8,601 bases of DNA. It comes from Tannerella sp. (GTDB lineage Bacteria > Bacteroidota > Bacteroidia > Bacteroidales > Tannerellaceae). The translations under genes were made by a program, and so were the position numbers. Positions 1-8,601 of this stretch are shown piece after piece (within the stretch, counting starts at the first letter, position 1; each line of letters begins with the position of its first letter). The stretch is from contig JAIRKN010000066.1 of the NCBI GenBank assembly GCA_031260095.1, positions 1-8,601 of the forward strand. Reading direction: 5' to 3'. The notes under the pieces were generated by a model, which worked only from the letters and a program-made list of their open reading frames with translations, made no database searches and was not told where the DNA came from.

Positions 1-1210
1 TTTCGTTTTGTTCTATATCGGAATTTGCCAGACCTTGCAGAGTGTCGATAGAGAGGTATTTGTGGTCTTCGGCTTGCAGTCCGGTGAGTTTCGTCAATTT
101 CTCGCCTTCGGGCGTACCGCTGTTGGTAATCAGCAGAAATGTACGGATGAGTATAATCCCGTCCGTTATTTCGGCAACAAAATAGCCGATCTTCAATTCG
201 TCGGTGAAGCAGGCTATGAGCAGTCTTTTTTTCGTTATGGAGAGAATCTCTTTATGTAATAATGCATGCATTATAACGGCTTTGTAGAAGCACGGGATCA
301 TAGCCCCTATCCGTTCTTTCATGCGATCAAGTGCGTGTTGTTGGATATAAATCGGCAATCTCAGTTTGGCTAAGGACGTGTTGGACGGATTAGAGCGGAG
401 CTTAGTGTTTATATCCTCCATCGACAGCTTAAAGGGGATAAACTCCGGCCGGCCATCTTCAAAAAACATTGCGCCTGTTTGTATGGCCGTATGCACTTCG
501 CCGTTGACTTTTACTTTCCGCACTTCCAGGGGATGCGTTCCGATAGTAATCTTTTTGTGCATTCTGAAATCCTGTCTTTTGATTTCTTCCATTGTTCTTT
601 GGTAGGCGCTGGCTTTCGTAGTGGGTAGTATGTTGGGGATGATGTATCCGGAATCGAAAGCCGGTACACTGATATCAAGCGTATAGGTGTGGAGGTATTT
701 CTTTTCCATATCGTCGAAGAGCCAGCAGGCGGAGGCGCAGATTTGCCGTAGGCCGTCTTCATAGATCTGTCCGCGTTCGTCGCGCAGTTCGGCATATCCG
801 GCGAACGGTTTTTTGGCCGGATATTGTGAGGGGGATTCGCTTAAATTGTATTCAAGCGACATGCCCACTAAGGAATAGTCGGCAAACGTCATTCGTTCTT
901 TGCCGCCCTTTACTACTTCCAGCGTCATTGTCTGTTGTTGCACTCTGATTGTTTTCATCAGTACTTCCGCCAGTTGTTTTTTGATTTTTGCACCTTTAGC
1001 TGCCACGATTTTGAGCGGAGCGCCACGGAAGTAATACATCGTGAGTTTCTCGGTCAACGGGATCGTGTCGTAGAGCGATTCGTCGCCGATTTGTTTGCAC
1101 AAGTGCCGCAGTTTGTCAAAAAAGAATCGTTTGTACTTCTCTTCCTGTTGTCTTTGTTGCTCTGCGGGACTGATATATTTTTTCTTTTTCGAATGTTTTA
1201 TCCTTGCCAT
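1..1210 (-). CDS. Hypothetical protein, 3' end (C-terminus) cut by window edge
   Basis: One minus-strand frame is open from the ATG at 1210 to the left edge, giving at least 403 residues with no stop. The start is well supported: an in-frame TAA (1225-1223) lies five codons upstream, and the ATG has an A/T-rich leader. The N-terminus is strongly basic (Lys-rich, residues 5-12), followed by a Gln/Glu/Lys-rich stretch that is probably helical (about 17-38). No signal peptide or clear membrane segment is visible, so I infer a cytoplasmic protein. Residues 291-301 read QHALDRMKERI, which resembles the HAxxRxxER pattern of several small nuclease- or toxin-like families; the match is short and may be chance. 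I do not recognise the family and assign no function. It follows trpA on the same strand but is separated by 394 bases with a repeat array, so it is probably not part of the trp pathway. Length and amino acid composition look like a real gene. Confidence 0.85.
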   Translation of the reverse strand, partial: MARIKHSKKKKYISPAEQQRQQEEKYKRFFFDKLRHLCKQIGDESLYDTIPLTEKLTMYYFRGAPLKIVAAKGAKIKKQLAEVLMKTIRVQQQTMTLEVVKGGKERMTFADYSLVGMSLEYNLSESPSQYPAKKPFAGYAELRDERGQIYEDGLRQICASACWLFDDMEKKYLHTYTLDISVPAFDSGYIIPNILPTTKASAYQRTMEEIKRQDFRMHKKITIGTHPLEVRKVKVNGEVHTAIQTGAMFFEDGRPEFIPFKLSMEDINTKLRSNPSNTSLAKLRLPIYIQQHALDRMKERIGAMIPCFYKAVIMHALLHKEILSITKKRLLIACFTDELKIGYFVAEITDGIILIRTFLLITNSGTPEGEKLTKLTGLQAEDHKYLSIDTLQGLANSDIEQNE

Positions 1211-1604: not shown

Positions 1605-2381
1605 TCACACGTCCAATGCTTCTTTTAACTTTTTGATCGCAATATCGGGAGAGTTGTGTTCGCCGAGAAGCGTGATGAATTTACTTCCGATAATTGCACC
1701 GGATACGTTATCGCAAACAGTGGCGTAGGTTTCTTTATTACTGATTCCGAAGCCGACCATACAGGGATTTTTTAACGACATCGAACGGATCCGGCGGAAA
1801 TAAGCCTGTTTTTCGGCATCAAACGATTTTTGTGCTCCGGTGACGGCGGCCGATGATACCATATAGATGAAACCGTCAGTATGCTCGTCGATCAGGCGGA
1901 TGCGTTCATCGGACGTTTCCGGCGTGATGAGCATGATCATTTTCAGATGATACCGTTCGGCGACCGGCTTGAAGTCTTTTCGATATTCATCAAACGGCAA
2001 GTCCGGAATGATGCAGCCGTCTATACCGCATTTCAGGCAGGAGCGGCAGAAGGCTTCAAAACCATACTGCATGACGGGATTCAGGTATCCCATCAGCAAT
2101 AGCGGAATTTGTACGTTCGGGCGAATGCCGTCCAGTTGAGCGAATAGTTTCTTCAGCGACATTCCATTGCGCAACGCCTGTGTTGCGGCGTTTTGTATCG
2201 CCACGCCGTCGGCTATCGGATCGCTGAAAGGAATCCCTATCTCGACCATATCTACGCCGTTTCTTTCCAACGTCCGTATGATCTCTACCGTCAGATCCGC
2301 CTCCGGGTATCCGGCGCAGAAATAAATCGAAAGAATGTCTTTCGTCTTTGTTTTGAATAAATGATTGATTCTGTTTTCCAT
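1605..2381 (-). CDS. trpA: Tryptophan synthase alpha subunit
   Basis: A complete 258-residue protein, a normal length for TrpA. It cleaves indole-3-glycerol phosphate to indole and glyceraldehyde-3-phosphate and passes indole to the beta subunit. Visible family features: the catalytic Glu47 in MVEIGIPFSDP, the catalytic Asp58 in DPIADG, IIPDLPF (124-130), the mobile loop ending VTGAQ (180-184), and phosphate-binding segments VGFGIS (209-214) and GAIIGSKF (228-235). The loop reads SSAAVTG where SRAGVTG is common, and DGVAIQ replaces DGPVIQ; both look like tolerated variants. It is the last gene of the operon, six bases after trpF; the junction TAA-ATAGAA-ATG suggests translational coupling. 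It contains no tryptophan. Its partner trpB is the first gene, at the other end of the operon. Confidence 0.98.
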   Translation of the reverse strand: MENRINHLFKTKTKDILSIYFCAGYPEADLTVEIIRTLERNGVDMVEIGIPFSDPIADGVAIQNAATQALRNGMSLKKLFAQLDGIRPNVQIPLLLMGYLNPVMQYGFEAFCRSCLKCGIDGCIIPDLPFDEYRKDFKPVAERYHLKMIMLITPETSDERIRLIDEHTDGFIYMVSSAAVTGAQKSFDAEKQAYFRRIRSMSLKNPCMVGFGISNKETYATVCDNVSGAIIGSKFITLLGEHNSPDIAIKKLKEALDV

Positions 2382-2387
2382 TTCTAT

Positions 2388-3023
2388 TTATTTTACCGCA
2401 ACAGCGTTGCGGATCCTGTGAATAAAATCTTTTAGTTTATCAACATCTTTCACCGCAGGCGATGTTTCGAAACCGCTGTTGAGATCAATGCCTGCAAATT
2501 GCGGATGTTTCAATAAGAGCAGATCGTGAATGCTGCCGGGTGTAAGACCGCCGCTCAACAGAAACGGCGTTCGACCCTGGTAGCTATCAAGCAACGACCA
2601 GTCGAAACGCAGGCCGGAACCTCCATAGCCGGCGCACCTGGTGTCGAAGAGAAAAAAATCGGTACAGGCGGCGTAGTCTTCGGTCTTCACGAAATCGTCA
2701 GCCTGCGCGACCGGGAAAGCTTTGATCACGCCGTAACCGGCTTCTCGCAGAGCGATACAGGTTCCGGGAGATTCTTCCCCGTGCAGTTGCAGGCTGTTCA
2801 GGCGGTAAGTTTCAGCCCTTGCCAGCATGTTCGCCGCCGTTTCGTTCACAAACACCCCTACTTTATGCCTTTCACACCGGCGTATCATCTCCGCCGCGTC
2901 TTCATTCTCCGAAACGCACCGCGAAGACCCCCGGTAGAATATGAATCCTACGTAATCAATATCAAGGGCCGATATCCGGCGCAGATTCTCGGCGTTGCGC
3001 ATTCCACAAACTTTTATTTTCAT
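2388..3023 (-). CDS. trpF: Phosphoribosylanthranilate isomerase
   Basis: A complete 211-residue protein with the usual TrpF length and start (MKIKVCGM). It carries out the Amadori rearrangement of N-(5'-phosphoribosyl)-anthranilate to CdRP, the third step of the pathway. The general base Cys6 lies in KVCGM and the general acid Asp127 in FLFDT. QLHGEE (79-84), LSGGL (156-160) and the phosphate-binding GIDLNSGFE-SPAVKD region (178-193) complete the (beta/alpha)8 signature. It is a separate gene here, unlike the TrpC-TrpF fusion of enteric bacteria. It starts 30 bases after trpC, the widest gap in the operon, and ends six bases before trpA. An AAGGA sits directly against the ATG, too close to act as a Shine-Dalgarno. 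Confidence 0.98.
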   Translation of the reverse strand: MKIKVCGMRNAENLRRISALDIDYVGFIFYRGSSRCVSENEDAAEMIRRCERHKVGVFVNETAANMLARAETYRLNSLQLHGEESPGTCIALREAGYGVIKAFPVAQADDFVKTEDYAACTDFFLFDTRCAGYGGSGLRFDWSLLDSYQGRTPFLLSGGLTPGSIHDLLLLKHPQFAGIDLNSGFETSPAVKDVDKLKDFIHRIRNAVAVK

Positions 3024-3053
3024 TCCTTATGGGCGGTTTACGTTAAATACATT

Positions 3054-3866
3054 TTATCCATGACGCAGTTCACGAACAAATTCCGCCACCGTCGCTCCCG
3101 GATCGGCCGTTTTCATAAAGGTCTCGCCGATCAGAAACCCCCTGTACCCCGCATCACGAAGGCTTTTGATGATCTTCGTATCCGAAATTCCGCTTTCGGA
3201 TACGAAGACCGGCGCCTTCCGTCCTTCTCCTGTTTCGGCTTTCATTCTTTCGATCATGCGGAATGAGTTTTCAACATCCGTATGGAATGTTCCCAGATTA
3301 CGATTGTTCACTCCGAGCATATCAATATTTTCGGTAAAATAGGCGAACTCCTTTTCATTGTGGATTTCAAGTAAAACCTCAAGCTCCAACTGGTGCGCGA
3401 TTCCGGCAAAAGATTCACACTCCTCTTTTGTCAGCGAAGCCGCAATCAACAGGACAGCGTCGGCCCCCAGTACGCGCGCCTGATAGAGCTGATACTCGTC
3501 GATGATAAAATCTTTGCGCAGGAGGGGCAGTTTAGTCAGCGAACGCGCCCGTTTCAAATCGCCGAATGAGCCTCCGAAAAAGTCGCTGTCCGTGAGAATG
3601 GAACATGCCGAGGCGCCTCCTTTCTCGTATCCGGGTACGATGTCATCTATCGTGGCCTGGGGGTGTAACCAGCCTTTCGAGGGCGATCGCCGTTTAAATT
3701 CCGATATGATACCGGATGCGGATGATTCCAGTGCTTTGCGCATGGAAACAGTCGGCGCGTGCAGCCGCCACTCTTCCGAGTGAAGCATCTGTACTAAAGG
3801 TACCGCCGCTTTCTGACGGGCCACCTCAAGTCTTTTATTTGCGATTATTTTGTCTAAGATATCCAT
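3054..3866 (-). CDS. trpC: Indole-3-glycerol phosphate synthase
   Basis: A complete, monofunctional 270-residue enzyme of normal length. It decarboxylates and cyclises CdRP to indole-3-glycerol phosphate. The family signatures are in order: EFKRRSPSKG (56-65, with Glu56 and catalytic Lys58), LTDSDFFGGS (91-100), LLRKDF with catalytic Lys118 (115-120), LLEIH with Glu167 (165-169), GVNNRNL (185-191), VSESGI (222-227) and FLIGE (244-248) for phosphate binding. It begins 16 bases after trpD in an A/T-rich context without a Shine-Dalgarno. It has two tryptophans, near residues 33 and 66, outside the catalytic motifs. Confidence 0.98.
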   Translation of the reverse strand: MDILDKIIANKRLEVARQKAAVPLVQMLHSEEWRLHAPTVSMRKALESSASGIISEFKRRSPSKGWLHPQATIDDIVPGYEKGGASACSILTDSDFFGGSFGDLKRARSLTKLPLLRKDFIIDEYQLYQARVLGADAVLLIAASLTKEECESFAGIAHQLELEVLLEIHNEKEFAYFTENIDMLGVNNRNLGTFHTDVENSFRMIERMKAETGEGRKAPVFVSESGISDTKIIKSLRDAGYRGFLIGETFMKTADPGATVAEFVRELRHG

Positions 3867-3882
3867 ATTTTATAATTCTGGA

Positions 3883-4878
3883 TCAGCCGTTTATTTCAAT
3901 AAATTTCTTTAGTACACGCAGCGCCTTTCCGCTCTCCAACGATTCTTTCGCTTCAGCAATACAGTCTTCTATTGTTTTCTCCGGACAGATCACCTGAATT
4001 GCAAAAGCCGAGTTTACAAGAACGCAATCACGTTGCGCTTCCGTCGCCGTATTGTTCAGTACGCGGTCGAATATTGCAGCGGCGGCTTCGGGAGAATCGC
4101 CTCCGTACAAGTCTTCTTCTGCATACCGCTTCATCCCAATCATTTCGGGAGAGTAGATCTTCTCTTTCTCCGGCGTTGACACTTTAAATTCGGACGTAAG
4201 AGAGATTTCATCATATCCGTCTATACTGTGTACCACGCCAAACCGCGTGCCGCTCGCCTGATAAGTGTAACTGTAAAGACGGAACAACGGCAGATTGTAT
4301 ACGCCCAACAATTGATAAGCAGGCATCGCAGGATTAACAAGCGGGCCAAGAAGATTGAAAAACGTGCGTACACCAAGATTCTTCCGTATCGAAGCGACGG
4401 CTTTCATCACCGGATTAAAATACGGAGCATGAAGGTATGCAATATGACAGGCGTCCAGAGATTTGCGCAATTTATCCGTTTCGTTCGTAAATTTAACGCC
4501 GTGCCGTTCCATCACATTGCTTGCGCCGCTTACCGAAGTAGCGCCGTAATTACCGTGCTTCGCCACATTATATCCGGCGCCCGCAAGCACGAAACACGAT
4601 GCCGTACTGATATTAAACGTATTCTTCCCGTCGCCTCCCGTCCCCACAATATCGACGGGCCTGTATTCCGATAAATCGACCGGTACGCGCATAGACAGTA
4701 GCGCGTCACTGAATCCGGCAAGTTCGTCAACAGATATACTGCGCATTAAAAATACGGTGATCAATGCCGAGATCTGTTCATTGTTATATTTTCCTCCGGC
4801 AATGTCAACCAGAATCTTTTGCGCTTCCTCGCGTCTGAGATATTGATGCTCAAACAGGCGATATAATAAATGTTTCAT
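3883..4878 (-). CDS. trpD: Anthranilate phosphoribosyltransferase
   Basis: A complete 331-residue protein of the usual length for a stand-alone TrpD. It transfers the phosphoribosyl group from PRPP to anthranilate. The PRPP-binding loop GTGGDGKNTFNIST spans 79-92, KHGN (107-110) and the SVSGASNVME region follow, GVRTFFNLLGPLVNP (169-183) contributes to anthranilate binding, and Asp223-Glu224 in GYDEIS are the expected metal ligands. Residues 1-65 or so form the helical N-terminal domain. It is not fused to TrpG as it is in enteric bacteria. It follows trpG after six bases, with the junction TAA-ATAAAA-ATG nearly identical to the trpF/trpA junction, suggesting coupled translation. It contains no tryptophan. 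Confidence 0.98.
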   Translation of the reverse strand: MKHLLYRLFEHQYLRREEAQKILVDIAGGKYNNEQISALITVFLMRSISVDELAGFSDALLSMRVPVDLSEYRPVDIVGTGGDGKNTFNISTASCFVLAGAGYNVAKHGNYGATSVSGASNVMERHGVKFTNETDKLRKSLDACHIAYLHAPYFNPVMKAVASIRKNLGVRTFFNLLGPLVNPAMPAYQLLGVYNLPLFRLYSYTYQASGTRFGVVHSIDGYDEISLTSEFKVSTPEKEKIYSPEMIGMKRYAEEDLYGGDSPEAAAAIFDRVLNNTATEAQRDCVLVNSAFAIQVICPEKTIEDCIAEAKESLESGKALRVLKKFIEING

Positions 4879-4884
4879 TTTTAT

Positions 4885-5457
4885 TTATTGTAAATTATAA
4901 ATCCAGTTTTCAATTATTCTTCCCCCCTGCGGAGTGAGTACTGATTCGGGATGAAATTGTATCCCCCGAACATCATACTGACGGTGACGAAGTCCCATGA
5001 TTTGTCCTTCGACAGCGTCGACAGCCGTAATTTCCAGACATTCCGGGAAACGCTCTTTCGAAACTACCCACGAATGATAGCGACCTGCACGAAAACCCAA
5101 CCCCAAACCGCTGAATAACGGATCTTCCGCTATCACACGTATGTCGGAACAAACGCCATGATAAACCTCCTTTTGATTCAGTAGTCCGGCGCCAAAGACC
5201 TCGCCGATCGCCTGTTCGCCAAGACAAACTCCCAGAATGGACTTCGTCGGTGCGAACTTTTCTATCAACGGCAATAGCAAACCGGCTTCCGAAGGTATTC
5301 CCGGCCCCGGAGATAACAGGATTTTATCATAAGAATCCACTTCATCCAATGATATCTTGTCATTGCGATATACATCCGTATCAACGCCCAACTCCCGTAA
5401 GATATGATACAGATTATACGTAAAAGAGTCGTAATTATCAAATAATAGACATTTCAT
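4885..5457 (-). CDS. trpG: Anthranilate synthase, glutamine amidotransferase component
   Basis: A complete 190-residue class I glutamine amidotransferase with the usual TrpG start (MKCLLFDNYDSFTYNL). It hydrolyses glutamine and supplies ammonia to TrpE. The nucleophile Cys78 lies in GVCLGEQ; His169 and Glu171 in GIQFHPES complete the triad; LLSPGPGIP (47-55) forms the oxyanion-hole region. The residue after CLG is Glu (position 81) where His is the common residue in TrpG; it is outside the triad. In many bacteria the same protein also serves p-aminobenzoate synthase (PabA), which the sequence cannot exclude, but the position directly after trpE argues for the tryptophan role. It starts 23 bases after trpE and ends six bases before trpD. 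Confidence 0.97.
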   Translation of the reverse strand: MKCLLFDNYDSFTYNLYHILRELGVDTDVYRNDKISLDEVDSYDKILLSPGPGIPSEAGLLLPLIEKFAPTKSILGVCLGEQAIGEVFGAGLLNQKEVYHGVCSDIRVIAEDPLFSGLGLGFRAGRYHSWVVSKERFPECLEITAVDAVEGQIMGLRHRQYDVRGIQFHPESVLTPQGGRIIENWIYNLQ

Positions 5458-5480
5458 AAATTGTTAATTATATACGGTTA

Positions 5481-6884
5481 TTAATTTTTCAGATTCTCCG
5501 CTTCGCATATCGCTTTATTCAGTGCGCCAAGTTTACTGTTCACCTCTTCGAGTTCGCGTTCATCATTACTTTTTGCCACAATACCCGCACCGGCCTGATA
5601 ATACAAAACATTGCTGCGACTGACGAACGTCCTGATCGTTATGGCCTGATTCAGATCTCCGTCGAATCCTATGAAACCGATACACCCGCCGTATGCCCCG
5701 CGATTGTGCCGTTCTATTTCCGTAATAAGTTGCATGGCACGCACTTTAGGCGCTCCGCTTAACGTTCCGGCAGGAAAGGTGTCGATAAATGTTTTTATGG
5801 AATTGCCGCCGCGCTCTATCTCTCCGCTCACACGCGATACCAAGTGCACGACGTGACTGTAATATTGCACCTCTTTGTAGAAATCAACCTTGACATGGCG
5901 GGCATTACGACTCAAATCATTGCGGGCAAGATCGACAAGCATGACATGTTCGGCATTCTCTTTAGGATCGTTTATCAACATTTCGACCCGTTGTTTATCA
6001 AGCGCCATATTGCCGGTACGAAAGGCCGTCCCGGCAATAGGATCTATGCTCGCGCGACCGTCTTGTATTTTACAATGTGTTTCCGGTGATGAGCCGAAAA
6101 TACGAAAGCCTCCAAAATCAAAGTAAAACAAGTAGGGCGAAGGATTTATACTGCGAAGCGAACGGTAAACCTTAAAATCATCCCCTTGATAAGCCTGTTC
6201 GAAACGACGACTGAGAACTATCTGGAAAACATCACCCCGCAAACAGTGCTTTACGCCTTCACGTACCATCGTTCTGTATTCTTCATCCGTGACAGGCGAT
6301 GTACGCTCTCCTGTTATACGGAAATCATAGGAAGCATAGTTACGGTTCTCTATCAGCGTTTCAATCTCATTCAAATGATCCTCTTCCTCTTCGCGACATA
6401 GTTCGATAAGTGTTAATTCATTTCTGAAATGATCAAATACCAACACATATTTATAAAGAATGTAATACAGATCCGGTGCATCCGTATCTTTATGGTGATA
6501 TTCCAATACGGGAATATTTTCAAAATAACGTACCGCATCAAATGCCGTATAGCCGAAGAGTCCGCAATATTTTTTATCGCGCCCTTCTACGTCAAACTGC
6601 TGAAGAAACAGATTCAATGCGTCCGGTACGGAATAATAAGCATTCAGTTCTTTCACTTCTTTTTTCCCGTCGGGATATGACATCGTAGCTTCGCCTGAAT
6701 TGATAGCAATATCCGCGACGGGACAAAGAGCAATAAAGGAAAGGCTGTTTTCGTTAACATGAAAATCCGAACTTTCCAATAACGCGGATTTCGGATAAAC
6801 ATCACGCAGTTTCAAGTATAAACTGACCGGCGTATAGAGGTCGCCTAATAATTTCTTACTGATCGTTTTTAACTTATACATCAT
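5481..6884 (-). CDS. trpE: Anthranilate synthase component I
   Basis: A complete 467-residue chorismate-using enzyme of normal TrpE length; it forms anthranilate with ammonia from TrpG and is the committed step. Visible in order: LLESS (35-39), part of the tryptophan feedback site; QIVLSRRF (221-228); NPSPYLF (247-253), the second feedback segment; PIAGT (282-286); DPKENAEHVMLVDLARND (306-323); FPAGTLSGAPK (370-380); YGGCIGF (398-404); NQAITIRT (412-419); and AGAGIVAKSNDERE (431-444) with the metal-binding acidic residues. The LLES and NPSPY motifs separate it from the p-aminobenzoate and isochorismate enzymes and indicate sensitivity to tryptophan. The start is MM; the second ATG (6881) is an equally good choice. 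It begins 19 bases after trpB and contains no tryptophan. Confidence 0.98.
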   Translation of the reverse strand: MMYKLKTISKKLLGDLYTPVSLYLKLRDVYPKSALLESSDFHVNENSLSFIALCPVADIAINSGEATMSYPDGKKEVKELNAYYSVPDALNLFLQQFDVEGRDKKYCGLFGYTAFDAVRYFENIPVLEYHHKDTDAPDLYYILYKYVLVFDHFRNELTLIELCREEEEDHLNEIETLIENRNYASYDFRITGERTSPVTDEEYRTMVREGVKHCLRGDVFQIVLSRRFEQAYQGDDFKVYRSLRSINPSPYLFYFDFGGFRIFGSSPETHCKIQDGRASIDPIAGTAFRTGNMALDKQRVEMLINDPKENAEHVMLVDLARNDLSRNARHVKVDFYKEVQYYSHVVHLVSRVSGEIERGGNSIKTFIDTFPAGTLSGAPKVRAMQLITEIERHNRGAYGGCIGFIGFDGDLNQAITIRTFVSRSNVLYYQAGAGIVAKSNDERELEEVNSKLGALNKAICEAENLKN

Positions 6885-6903
6885 TTAAAATTTTAGTGAT
6901 TAA

Positions 6904-8118
6904 TCATTCATTGTCCTGTCGACGCATACGCAGGTTCTCCTGTGTGCAAAGCGTATCCATATCCTTGTCTCCACGGCCGGATACCGTTAACACCAGAACG
7001 TCTTCCTGTTTAAAATCAAGTTTGGGCAGCGCTCCGAGTGCGTGAGCGCTTTCAAGTGCGGGAATAATACCTTCCAATTGCGTCAACTCAAACGCGGCGG
7101 CGATCGCTTCATCATCATTCACCGACAAGACCTTCGCCCGTTTCGTTTCCGACAGATTGGCATGAATAGGCCCTATTCCCGGATAATCCAGGCCGGCCGA
7201 TATCGAATAAGGTTCTTCGATCTGTCCGTCTTCATTCTGCATCACAAGCGTCCGCGCCCCATGTAATATACCTTCTTTTCCCAGTTGCATGGTAGCTGCG
7301 CTTTTACCCGAAAGAAGTCCTTCCCCCCCGGCTTCGGCAAGTATAATTTTCACCCGTCCGTCATGCAGGTAATGATAAACCGTACCCGCAGCATTACTTC
7401 CTCCTCCTACACATGCCATCAGATAATCCGGATAATCGCGTCCTTCTTTTTCCATCAGTTGCTTTTTTATTTCATCGCTTATCACAGACTGAAGTCTTGC
7501 TACCATATCGGGATAAGGATGAGGTCCTACGGTCGAACCGATAATATAAAACGTATCCGAAGGATGACAACACCAGTCGCGTATCGCTTCATTCGTCGCA
7601 TCTTTCAAGGTCATATTTCCGGAGAATACCGGAACGACCGTCGCACCGAGCATCTGCATCTTTTTAACATTCGGCTGCTGGCGTTCCACATCCGTTTTAC
7701 CCATATAAACCACGCATGGCATATCCATTAGTGCGCAGACCGTAGCGATTGCCACGCCATGCTGCCCCGCGCCGGTTTCCGCGATCATACGGGTCTTCCC
7801 CATACTTCGCGCGACAAGGATCTGTCCGATCGTATTATTAATCTTATGCGCTCCGGTATGATTCAAATCTTCCCGTTTCAGATAAATCCGGCAACCGTAT
7901 TTCCTGCTTAACCGTTTTGCAAAATAAAGCGGCGACGGACGTCCTACATAATCACGGAGCAGATCATGATACTCTTTTTTAAAAGAACCGCTCTCCAACA
8001 CTTTTAAATACTTATTCTGCAAATCTTCCACGCATTTGTGAAGGATTTCAGGAACATAAGCGCCTCCGAAACGCCCGTAATAACCTTTTTCATCTACATG
8101 ATAATTCATTTTGTTCAT
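6904..8118 (-). CDS. trpB: Tryptophan synthase beta subunit
   Basis: A 404-residue TrpB1-type beta subunit that condenses indole with serine using pyridoxal phosphate. PLP binds Lys92 in HTGAHKINN. Glu114 in AETGAGQHG is the catalytic acid/base, GGGSN (238-242) holds the PLP phosphate, and Ser380 in VSGRGDKD contacts the PLP nitrogen. The chosen ATG (8118) is followed by NKMNYHVDEKGYYGRFGG, close to the family start, and preceded by AATAAATAGA like other starts in this operon. The ATG at 8109 is a possible alternative. An in-frame ATG at 8151 would add 11 unconserved residues and sits six bases after the attenuator U-tract, so I reject it. It is the first structural gene, separated from its partner trpA by the whole pathway. 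It contains one tryptophan. Confidence 0.97.
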   Translation of the reverse strand: MNKMNYHVDEKGYYGRFGGAYVPEILHKCVEDLQNKYLKVLESGSFKKEYHDLLRDYVGRPSPLYFAKRLSRKYGCRIYLKREDLNHTGAHKINNTIGQILVARSMGKTRMIAETGAGQHGVAIATVCALMDMPCVVYMGKTDVERQQPNVKKMQMLGATVVPVFSGNMTLKDATNEAIRDWCCHPSDTFYIIGSTVGPHPYPDMVARLQSVISDEIKKQLMEKEGRDYPDYLMACVGGGSNAAGTVYHYLHDGRVKIILAEAGGEGLLSGKSAATMQLGKEGILHGARTLVMQNEDGQIEEPYSISAGLDYPGIGPIHANLSETKRAKVLSVNDDEAIAAAFELTQLEGIIPALESAHALGALPKLDFKQEDVLVLTVSGRGDKDMDTLCTQENLRMRRQDNE

Positions 8119-8156: not shown

Positions 8157-8193
8157 AAAAAAAAAGGTCTGTCGCGAGTACGACAGGCCTTTT
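8157..8193 (-). terminator. trp operon attenuator (rho-independent terminator)
   Basis: On the minus strand a stem AAAAGG-C-CTGTCG pairs with CGACAG-A-CCTTTT around a six-base loop (TACTCG), with one C/A mismatch inside, and runs into nine consecutive T residues (8165-8157). It lies between the leader ORF and trpB, 30 bases after the leader stop codon. This position, before the first structural gene and after a Trp-rich leader, is what transcription attenuation predicts. The loop and the first bases of the 3' arm can pair instead with the end of the leader ORF. Confidence 0.93.
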
Positions 8194-8233
8194 CTAATTA
8201 ACCAAATAAATAAATACGCCGGACTACTCACAA
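8172..8233 (-). promoter_or_regulatory. Candidate antiterminator helix of the trp leader
   Basis: On the transcript, UUGUGAGUA (8233-8225, at the leader stop codon) can form nine consecutive pairs, two of them G-U, with UACUCGCGA (8180-8172), the terminator loop plus the start of its 3' arm. Forming this helix destroys the terminator. It also uses the same bases as the 3' arm of the pause hairpin, so the structures are mutually exclusive. The pairing is read directly from the sequence; function is inferred. Confidence 0.7.
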
Positions 8234-8283
8234 TGAATACATTGCAAGCGCCACCAATTTCTATTTATCATCAAACGTCTCAT
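8224..8283 (-). CDS. trpL: trp operon leader peptide
   Basis: A 19-codon ORF translating to MRRLMINRNWWRLQCIHCE, followed by TAG. The adjacent Trp codons are 10 and 11. It lies between a matching promoter and a rho-independent terminator directly upstream of trpB. The peptide is too short to have a separate function; the act of translating it is expected to sense charged tRNA-Trp. Its ATG lies about 15 bases from the predicted transcription start, with no Shine-Dalgarno, in an A/T-rich context like that of other genes here. The symbol is used by analogy with other trp leaders. Two Trp codons in 19 contrast with six in all seven enzymes. A second in-frame ATG at codon 5 would also contain both Trp codons. 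Confidence 0.88.
   Translation of the reverse strand: MRRLMINRNWWRLQCIHCE
8226..8249 (-). promoter_or_regulatory. Candidate pause (1:2) hairpin of the trp leader
   Basis: On the transcript GCUUGCAAUG (8249-8240) pairs with CAUUGUGAGU (8235-8226) around the loop UAUU, giving ten pairs including three G-U. It begins directly after the two Trp codons (8256-8251). A ribosome waiting there would cover the 5' arm and free the 3' arm for the antiterminator helix; without stalling, this hairpin or a ribosome at the stop codon keeps the 3' arm occupied and the terminator forms. Confidence 0.7.
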
Positions 8284-8303
8284 ATTATAAACTTTATCGG
8301 CGG

Positions 8304-8334
8304 CAAATATACAGACATTTTTCATATAAACAAA
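8304..8334 (-). promoter_or_regulatory. trp operon promoter, Bacteroidota type
   Basis: On the minus strand TTTG (8334-8331) is followed after exactly 19 bases by TATATTTG (8311-8304). This fits the TTTG-N19-21-TAnnTTTG consensus of the primary sigma factor in Bacteroidota. Transcription should start near 8298, giving a leader of about 15 bases before the leader peptide ATG. A run of nine A residues (8354-8346) lies just upstream and could act as an UP-like element. Confidence 0.88.
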
Positions 8335-8497: not shown

Positions 8498-8540
8498 ATC
8501 GAGTAGGAGAAACGGGATTATTTCCCGTTTCGACCTCTCA
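8498..8540 (-). ncRNA. Group II intron domain VI with branch-point A
   Basis: On the minus strand GAAACGGGA (8531-8523) and TCCCGTTTC (8517-8509) form a 9-bp stem with loop AATAA. Below it GAG and GG pair with CC and CTC around unpaired TA. The unpaired A (opposite 8504) is the seventh base from the intron end, where the branch-point adenosine is expected. Confidence 0.8.
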
Positions 8541-8541
8541 C

Positions 8542-8573
8542 ACCACCGTACGTGCCGTCCGGCATACGGCGGT
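8542..8573 (-). ncRNA. Group II intron domain V hairpin
   Basis: On the minus strand the lower stem ACCGCCGTA (8573-8565) pairs with TACGGTGGT (8550-8542), including the G-U pair normally found in the catalytic triad. A two-base CG bulge (8552-8551) precedes the 3' strand, as in other domain V hairpins. The upper stem TGCC/GGCA carries the tetraloop GGAC. The triad is CGC (8571-8569). The upper stem is only 4 bp, shorter than the usual 34-base domain V would allow. Confidence 0.85.
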
Positions 8574-8601
8574 TCCTTAATTAACCCTTAAACACAGGAT
8601 G

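Follow-up and report, generated by a model that had tools for sequence, protein, structure and literature searches.

In textbook attenuation of the E. coli trp operon, the antiterminator captures the 5' strand of the terminator. In Bacteroidota, the Bacteroid-trp motif (RF01692), which Rfam types only as a cis-regulatory leader, was listed among the cis-regulatory motifs of Bacteroidetes by Weinberg et al. 2010 (PMC2864571), and a passage on Flavobacterium psychrophilum compares it to attenuation at the E. coli trp leader (PMC6414381). A transcriptome study reports strong hints that amino-acid operons of the same species are preceded by leader-peptide attenuators (PMC9723704). The leader analyzed here shares with these F. 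psychrophilum accounts the phylum, the setting before amino-acid operons and the proposed leader-peptide attenuation; it differs in that the relevant passages (PMC9723704, PMC6414381) come without a described antiterminator. Because RF01692, its published likening to E. coli attenuation and the F. psychrophilum clues precede our analysis, this kind of attenuator is already known and the switch type is not new. For the fhsA motif of Leptotrichia, the authors propose that the terminator stem-loop may pair with a preceding hairpin and thereby fail to form (PMC11109978). That proposed way of disarming a terminator would be shared with our leader, but the motif as presented there has no Trp leader peptide, has a supposed folate-type ligand and belongs to another phylum (PMC11109978). 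What appears to be new relative to the known kind is a predicted antiterminator that targets the loop and 3' strand of the terminator, which we did not find described for a Bacteroidota leader in the literature searched, a body of text mostly outside subscription journals and supplements (e.g. the motif pages of Weinberg et al.).

We analyzed an 8,601-nucleotide contig of Tannerella sp. (JAIRKN010000066.1, assembly GCA_031260095.1), referred to in full as the window, in which a trp operon is encoded on the minus strand. The original prediction had described a promoter, a 19-residue leader with tandem Trp codons, a pause hairpin (P1), a candidate antiterminator and a terminator, and all of these lie in the sequence where it put them (Table 1). 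Folding of the RNA with 8298 or 8296 as its first base adds one part to that list, a long outer helix (P0) that surrounds P1, and again gives the terminator. The lowest-energy fold of the whole region, in which the Trp codons pair with bases from 8304 down, was set aside because these bases would lie partly upstream of the transcription start that the promoter suggests. The 172-nt stretch has a folding energy of -50.1 kcal/mol compared to -33.0 (sd 3.6) for shuffled sequence (z -4.7), beating 200 of 200 shuffles. The arrangement TTTG-N19-TATATTTG is presumably a promoter pattern of the Bacteroidota type; the strict spacing form, TTTG-N17..23-TAnnTTTG, occurs in 61 of 74 leaders scanned (window counted) and the second box in the remaining 13. 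A scan with the sigma-70 consensus, which does not cover Bacteroidota promoters, gave two matches, one on the plus strand and an unrelated one on the minus strand, no more than shuffled sequence gives.

Table 1. Positions of the trp leader elements and the downstream operon in the window.
Feature	Position	Strand	Basis or remark
Promoter element TTTG (about -33)	8334-8331	-	Sequence; pattern recurrent among relatives
Promoter element TATATTTG (about -7)	8311-8304	-	Second box, 19 nt from TTTG
Leader ORF MRRLMINRNWWRLQCIHCE-stop, 19 codons + stop	8283-8224	-	Sequence; WW/WWW counterparts in relatives
P0 5' arm (outer helix, no-ribosome state)	8274-8260	-	Fold from 8298; locus-specific pairing
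Tandem Trp codons, likely stall site	8256-8251	-	Sequence; Trp runs conserved in held-out leaders
P1 (pause hairpin) 5' arm	8249-8240	-	Fold; clade pairing; a ribosome on the Trp codons would cover the arm
P1 3' arm, overlapping the antiterminator segment	8235-8226	-	Fold; pairing in the window's clade
Candidate antiterminator segment UUGUGAGUA	8233-8225	-	Pairs with 8180-8172; folds and comparative tests
P0 3' arm	8214-8198	-	Fold from 8298; locus-specific pairing
Intrinsic terminator hairpin, loop 8179-8176	8195-8160	-	Fold; stem covaries
Candidate antiterminator partner UACUCGCGA	8180-8172	-	Last base of terminator 5' arm, loop and top of 3' arm
U-tract, nine T	8165-8157	-	Sequence
trpB, trpE, trpG, trpD, trpC, trpF, trpA (regulated genes)	1605-8118	-	ORFs and Pfam domains

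Infernal aligned 8303-8182 to all 131 model positions of RF01692 with 42.2 bits (E 0.02). This score falls short of the gathering cut-off of 49 bits, so the element is not filed as a member of RF01692; judged from this alignment, it appears to be a divergent relative. The two have in common a position before trp genes in Bacteroidota and consensus helices around the Trp codons, which match P0 and P1. They differ in extent: the Rfam model stops just inside the terminator 5' arm, and the loop, the 3' arm and the antiterminator pairing are not part of it.

We consider it very probable that in this leader a stalled ribosome would free the segment for pairing with the terminator loop and 3' strand, likely permitting transcription into trpBEGDCFA. 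In an untranslated leader, P0 and P1 would hold 8233-8225 and the terminator would form; folding of RNA 8298 to 8157 of the window with no ribosome gave P1 and the terminator at probability 1.0. When charged tRNA-Trp is plentiful, a ribosome would translate as far as the stop codon, where it would mask the segment, and the terminator would again form; with the stop codon in the A site, the terminator alone formed in the window (1.0). If tRNA-Trp lacks its amino acid, the ribosome would pause at a Trp codon in its A site, and its footprint would take in the 5' arm of P1 down to 8244-8241. The freed segment would then encounter the terminator loop emerging from the polymerase, ahead of the remaining 3' arm, and the pairing of 8233-8225 with 8180-8172 (9 pairs, 2 being G-U) would let the polymerase run on into trpBEGDCFA. 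What the analysis shows directly is the sequence, the conserved and covarying pairing of P0, P1, antiterminator and terminator in related leaders, and the computed folds. Stalling, antitermination and tRNA-Trp sensing are what we infer from a short ORF with clustered Trp codons before a terminator and from antiterminator and terminator pairings that are mutually exclusive and conserved, and the element as a whole likely works as a ribosome-mediated trp attenuator.

The stalled state was computed for several lengths of RNA. While the polymerase is near the end of the U-tract, it hides about ten or more of the most recently made RNA bases, so the RNA outside the polymerase would end near 8168-8172; there the antiterminator is favoured under a stalled ribosome, but it would not be after full release. 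When the second Trp codon occupied the A site and the free RNA ran from 8240 to 8168, the antiterminator of the window was predicted at 0.98 and the terminator at 0.02. At an RNA end of 8165 the same state gave 0.78 and 0.22, and at 8161 it gave 0.01 and 0.99. Starting the RNA at 8303 instead of 8298 with no ribosome gave an antiterminator probability of 0.76 at an RNA end of 8172 and 0.0 at 8165. In this model the antiterminator would act while the polymerase crosses the U-tract.

Relatives were collected by a TrpB scan of named genomes in which the best 80 of 554 confirmed loci were kept; the nearest among these best 80 is a Tannerella sp. metagenome bin with a TrpB 88% identical. A WW/WWW leader ORF precedes trpB at 73 of these best 80 loci, a single Trp codon in an otherwise intact leader layout was found at two (L022, L079), the leader element is absent at three (L012, L036, L073), and two loci are cut off by a contig end (L054, L055). 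Leaving out the cut-off loci and those without the element, and including the window, gave a set of 76 leaders, every one of which carries the terminator hairpin (76/76, window counted). They form two groups by antiterminator segment: group A (n=60; Bacteroides, Parabacteroides and others), mostly GUCGUAAGG, and group C (n=16; the window's clade), mostly UUGUGAGUA. The leaders were aligned with MAFFT with structure not used (alignment A1), and a covariance model, R1, was built from A1 with only the terminator pairs as structure. The 67 best full-length R1 matches outside the window's family (E 3.7e-8 or better) served as a held-out set, from which one unrelated match (L176) and one Cys leader (L163) were excluded before counting (n=65). 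Consecutive Trp codons are present in all 65 (two in 18, three in 44, four in 3), the genes that follow are trpB, trpE or trpD homologues, and 14-34 nt (median 22) separate the last Trp codon from the antiterminator segment that follows it. The conservation of Trp codons expected from the original prediction was seen in both samples. In the window's own genus, one leader (L196) reads NWRR, with one Trp codon and the other parts intact.

At E 0.001 or better, R1 matches 128 of 295 genomes of the order, a count that takes in partial matches and opposite-strand matches to the palindromic terminator. It matches 85 of 98 genomes of the family and 23 of 29 of the window's genus, itself counted; the 6 of 29 without a match include some incomplete genomes. 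RF01692 matches 27 of the same 295 genomes at E 0.001, and the Bacteroid-trp family looks under-annotated (27 compared to 128 of 295, with partial R1 matches counted). Twenty weaker full-length R1 matches were examined by eye for leaders of other amino acids; nine (L204, L210, L213-L219) have a WW/WWW leader and the remaining eleven are apparently unrelated terminators.

We examined the partner of the antiterminator segment by comparison across these leaders. Duplexes between the segment and its partner, the loop and uppermost 3' arm of the terminator, came to -11.5 and -10.8 kcal/mol in the two groups; when terminators were exchanged between groups, the values were -8.1 and -8.3, near those of shuffled segments (-7.9), a cost of about 3 kcal/mol. 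At single loci the loop/3'-arm fit is only moderately above shuffles (median rank 14/200; window 15/200), and the strength of this evidence is its consistency across loci. In A1, 84.1% of cells of the antiterminator helix are paired compared to at most 41.8% for slid versions of the helix, two-sided changes occur at 5 of 9 pairs, and the covariation score is 0.256 compared to 0.199 (sd 0.007) for shuffled data. The most clear-cut exchange replaces A-U by G-C at one pair and is seen in 18 of 72 distinct rows. Covariation had been anticipated in all three helices, and it was found in P1, in the terminator and, across groups, in the antiterminator, but none was found in the antiterminator within the window's clade alone, where this helix is near-invariant. 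P1, unlike the antiterminator, covaries inside that clade (95.1% of cells paired), and covariation of the terminator stem is strong, with two-sided change at 10 of 13 pairs.

The held-out leaders (n=65) separate the two possible partners. With the loop and 3' arm, the mean for each segment and its own terminator was -10.53, compared to -8.73 (sd 0.25) for permuted terminators, and 0 of 2000 permutations were as low. With the 5' arm the corresponding means were -6.99 and -7.08, and 1319 of 2000 permutations were as low, indicating no locus-specific fit. Taking one locus per distinct terminator (n=52) gave 0 of 5000 for loop and 3' arm and 3266 of 5000 for the 5' arm, and a locus beat its own mean swap in 39 of 52 cases for the former and 27 of 52 for the latter. 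Since the same loci show no 5'-arm fit under the same permutation, the 5' arm is an internal control for relatedness and composition. P1 and P0, with windows positioned relative to the antiterminator segment, were also locus-specific in the held-out set (-8.4 compared to -7.1 and -7.6 compared to -5.0, respectively; 0 of 2000 permutations each). Searches for duplexes with long terminator arms had returned large interior loops joining the Trp codons to the lower 3' arm, a site that the stalled ribosome would occupy; after these results the search windows were shortened.

The textbook E. coli form would have the antiterminator capture the 5' arm, with the loop/3'-arm match a by-product of the terminator sequence. 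Some observations lean that way: the stalled-state fold of the window contains weak scattered pairs of 8224-8200 with the 5' arm, and in group A leaders pairing between the 5' arm and the bases that follow the segment comes to -9.7 compared to -7.5 for shuffles, the 5'-arm duplex being the stronger in 19 of 60 leaders, chiefly of Bacteroides. The pairs in the window are, however, without comparative support, pairing with the 5' arm in the window's clade is at shuffle level (-5.4 compared to -5.0) with a stronger 5'-arm duplex in 0 of 16, and in the held-out permutations the fit was specific to loop and 3' arm; the 5'-arm duplex was stronger in 8 of 65 held-out leaders, with 3 further ties. We therefore regard the textbook form as improbable here. 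The claimed choice of loop and 3' arm over the 5' arm as the partner of the antiterminator was upheld in the held-out set and in the window's clade, but the preference is tempered by the 5'-arm pairing of some group A leaders. Under the same protocol, E. coli trpL (one sequence) gave -11.5 with the 5' arm and -5.1 with loop and 3' arm. It shares with the Bacteroidales leaders a tandem-Trp leader ORF, a pause hairpin, an antiterminator, a U-tract terminator and three predicted states that are alike; it differs in the preference of the freed segment, for the 5' arm in trpL and for loop and 3' arm in Bacteroidales, and P0 is extra in the latter.

Both pairings might also be combined in one longer helix. 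Its outer part would join the segment to loop and 3' arm; its inner part would join the bases downstream of the segment to the 5' arm and would matter in Bacteroides but be weak in the window's clade. Both parts co-occur in the folds of most leaders, and the window has 10 pairs with the 5' arm and 8 with loop and 3' arm. Neither the held-out set nor the window's clade, however, lends comparative support to the inner part, and as a general account we hold the combined helix to be possible but rather doubtful. Within Bacteroides a mixed antiterminator is likely because group A 5'-arm pairing exceeds shuffles and the 5'-arm duplex is stronger in 19 of 60 leaders. Such a helix extends the main explanation and does not contradict it.

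The predicted switch between loop/3'-strand pairing and the terminator was computed for the other leaders as well. With a stalled ribosome, 65 of 76 leaders (16/16 in group C, 49/60 in group A) had the antiterminator as their lowest-energy fold at the first RNA length computed; in 11 of 60 group A leaders the terminator was already lowest at that length. Held-out leaders folded as the antiterminator in 60 of 65 cases, the other five not doing so, and same-genus leaders in 20 of 20, several of which share contigs with the 76. Once the full terminator was exposed, it was the lowest-energy fold in 75 of 76 leaders despite the stalled ribosome. The energies of the alternatives came out for the original prediction, with the antiterminator favoured in the stalled state at an RNA end of 8168 and the terminator once it is complete. 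Because the finished terminator is more stable even under a stalled ribosome, antitermination would have to be kinetic.

A ribosome at the stop codon had been predicted to mask the segment and let the terminator form, and this describes the window but is not universal. The stop lies more than 16 nt past the segment start in 10 of 74 leaders, all in group A, where a ribosome at the stop would not mask it, and 12 of 65 held-out leaders have their stop outside -6 to +16 of that start. Since some leaders stop well past the segment, cover by a ribosome at the stop codon cannot be the sole way of hiding it; P1 reforming behind the ribosome would be enough. The leader frame crosses the antiterminator segment, with a stop 27-38 nt past its start, in L017, L021, L025, L026, L030, L033, L037, L063, L064 and L071.

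A different sensor, with a ligand or protein (riboswitch or TRAP-like) read by the RNA and the Trp ORF secondary, seems to us hardly credible. We found no support for it, the cis-regulatory typing of RF01692 being all that Rfam offers; no T-box or riboswitch is among the Rfam matches of the window up to E 1, and none scores above gathering. The two to four consecutive Trp codons of all 65 held-out leaders speak against it, as does a CCWCC leader before cysK, which is what codon-specific sensing predicts (one leader). This leader (L163/L200, in G129:C131) is followed by a strong terminator, and the next genes match cysK and serine O-acetyltransferase (EpsC) models above cut-offs. By eye, 7 pairs are possible between its UGUAAGC and GUUUACA, which spans loop and 3' arm (a single case). 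In the same contig, the CCWCC leader and then a WWW leader (L160) before a TrpB-like gene form two attenuator-like leaders in succession.

We lean towards the broader view that Bacteroidales have their own form of attenuator, in which the terminator would be disarmed from its loop and 3' strand, the decision would fall later than in E. coli, and the design would be reused for other amino acids, e.g. in the Cys leader before cysK and serine acetyltransferase. If so, this would be a second solution to attenuation, conserved across Bacteroidales, with the decision made at the terminator loop when the polymerase is almost at the end of the U-tract, and ribosome-polymerase coupling in Bacteroidota would become directly testable. 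It would also account for the smaller number of genomes matched by the Rfam model, which stops short of the terminator loop, than by a model that includes the terminator.

Other features were seen around the operon. A 403-aa ORF at 2-1210 (minus strand), cut by the window end, is without a Pfam match at E 0.001. An array of near-identical repeats (TCCAATTGGATTTCG and variants) at 1381-1558 separates trpA from the next gene; several frames are open across it, and plant microRNA models match it at chance level only. A group II intron domain (RF00029) lies at 8498-8574 (minus strand), about 160 nt upstream of the trp promoter, with 43.8 bits, above the cut-off of 40.
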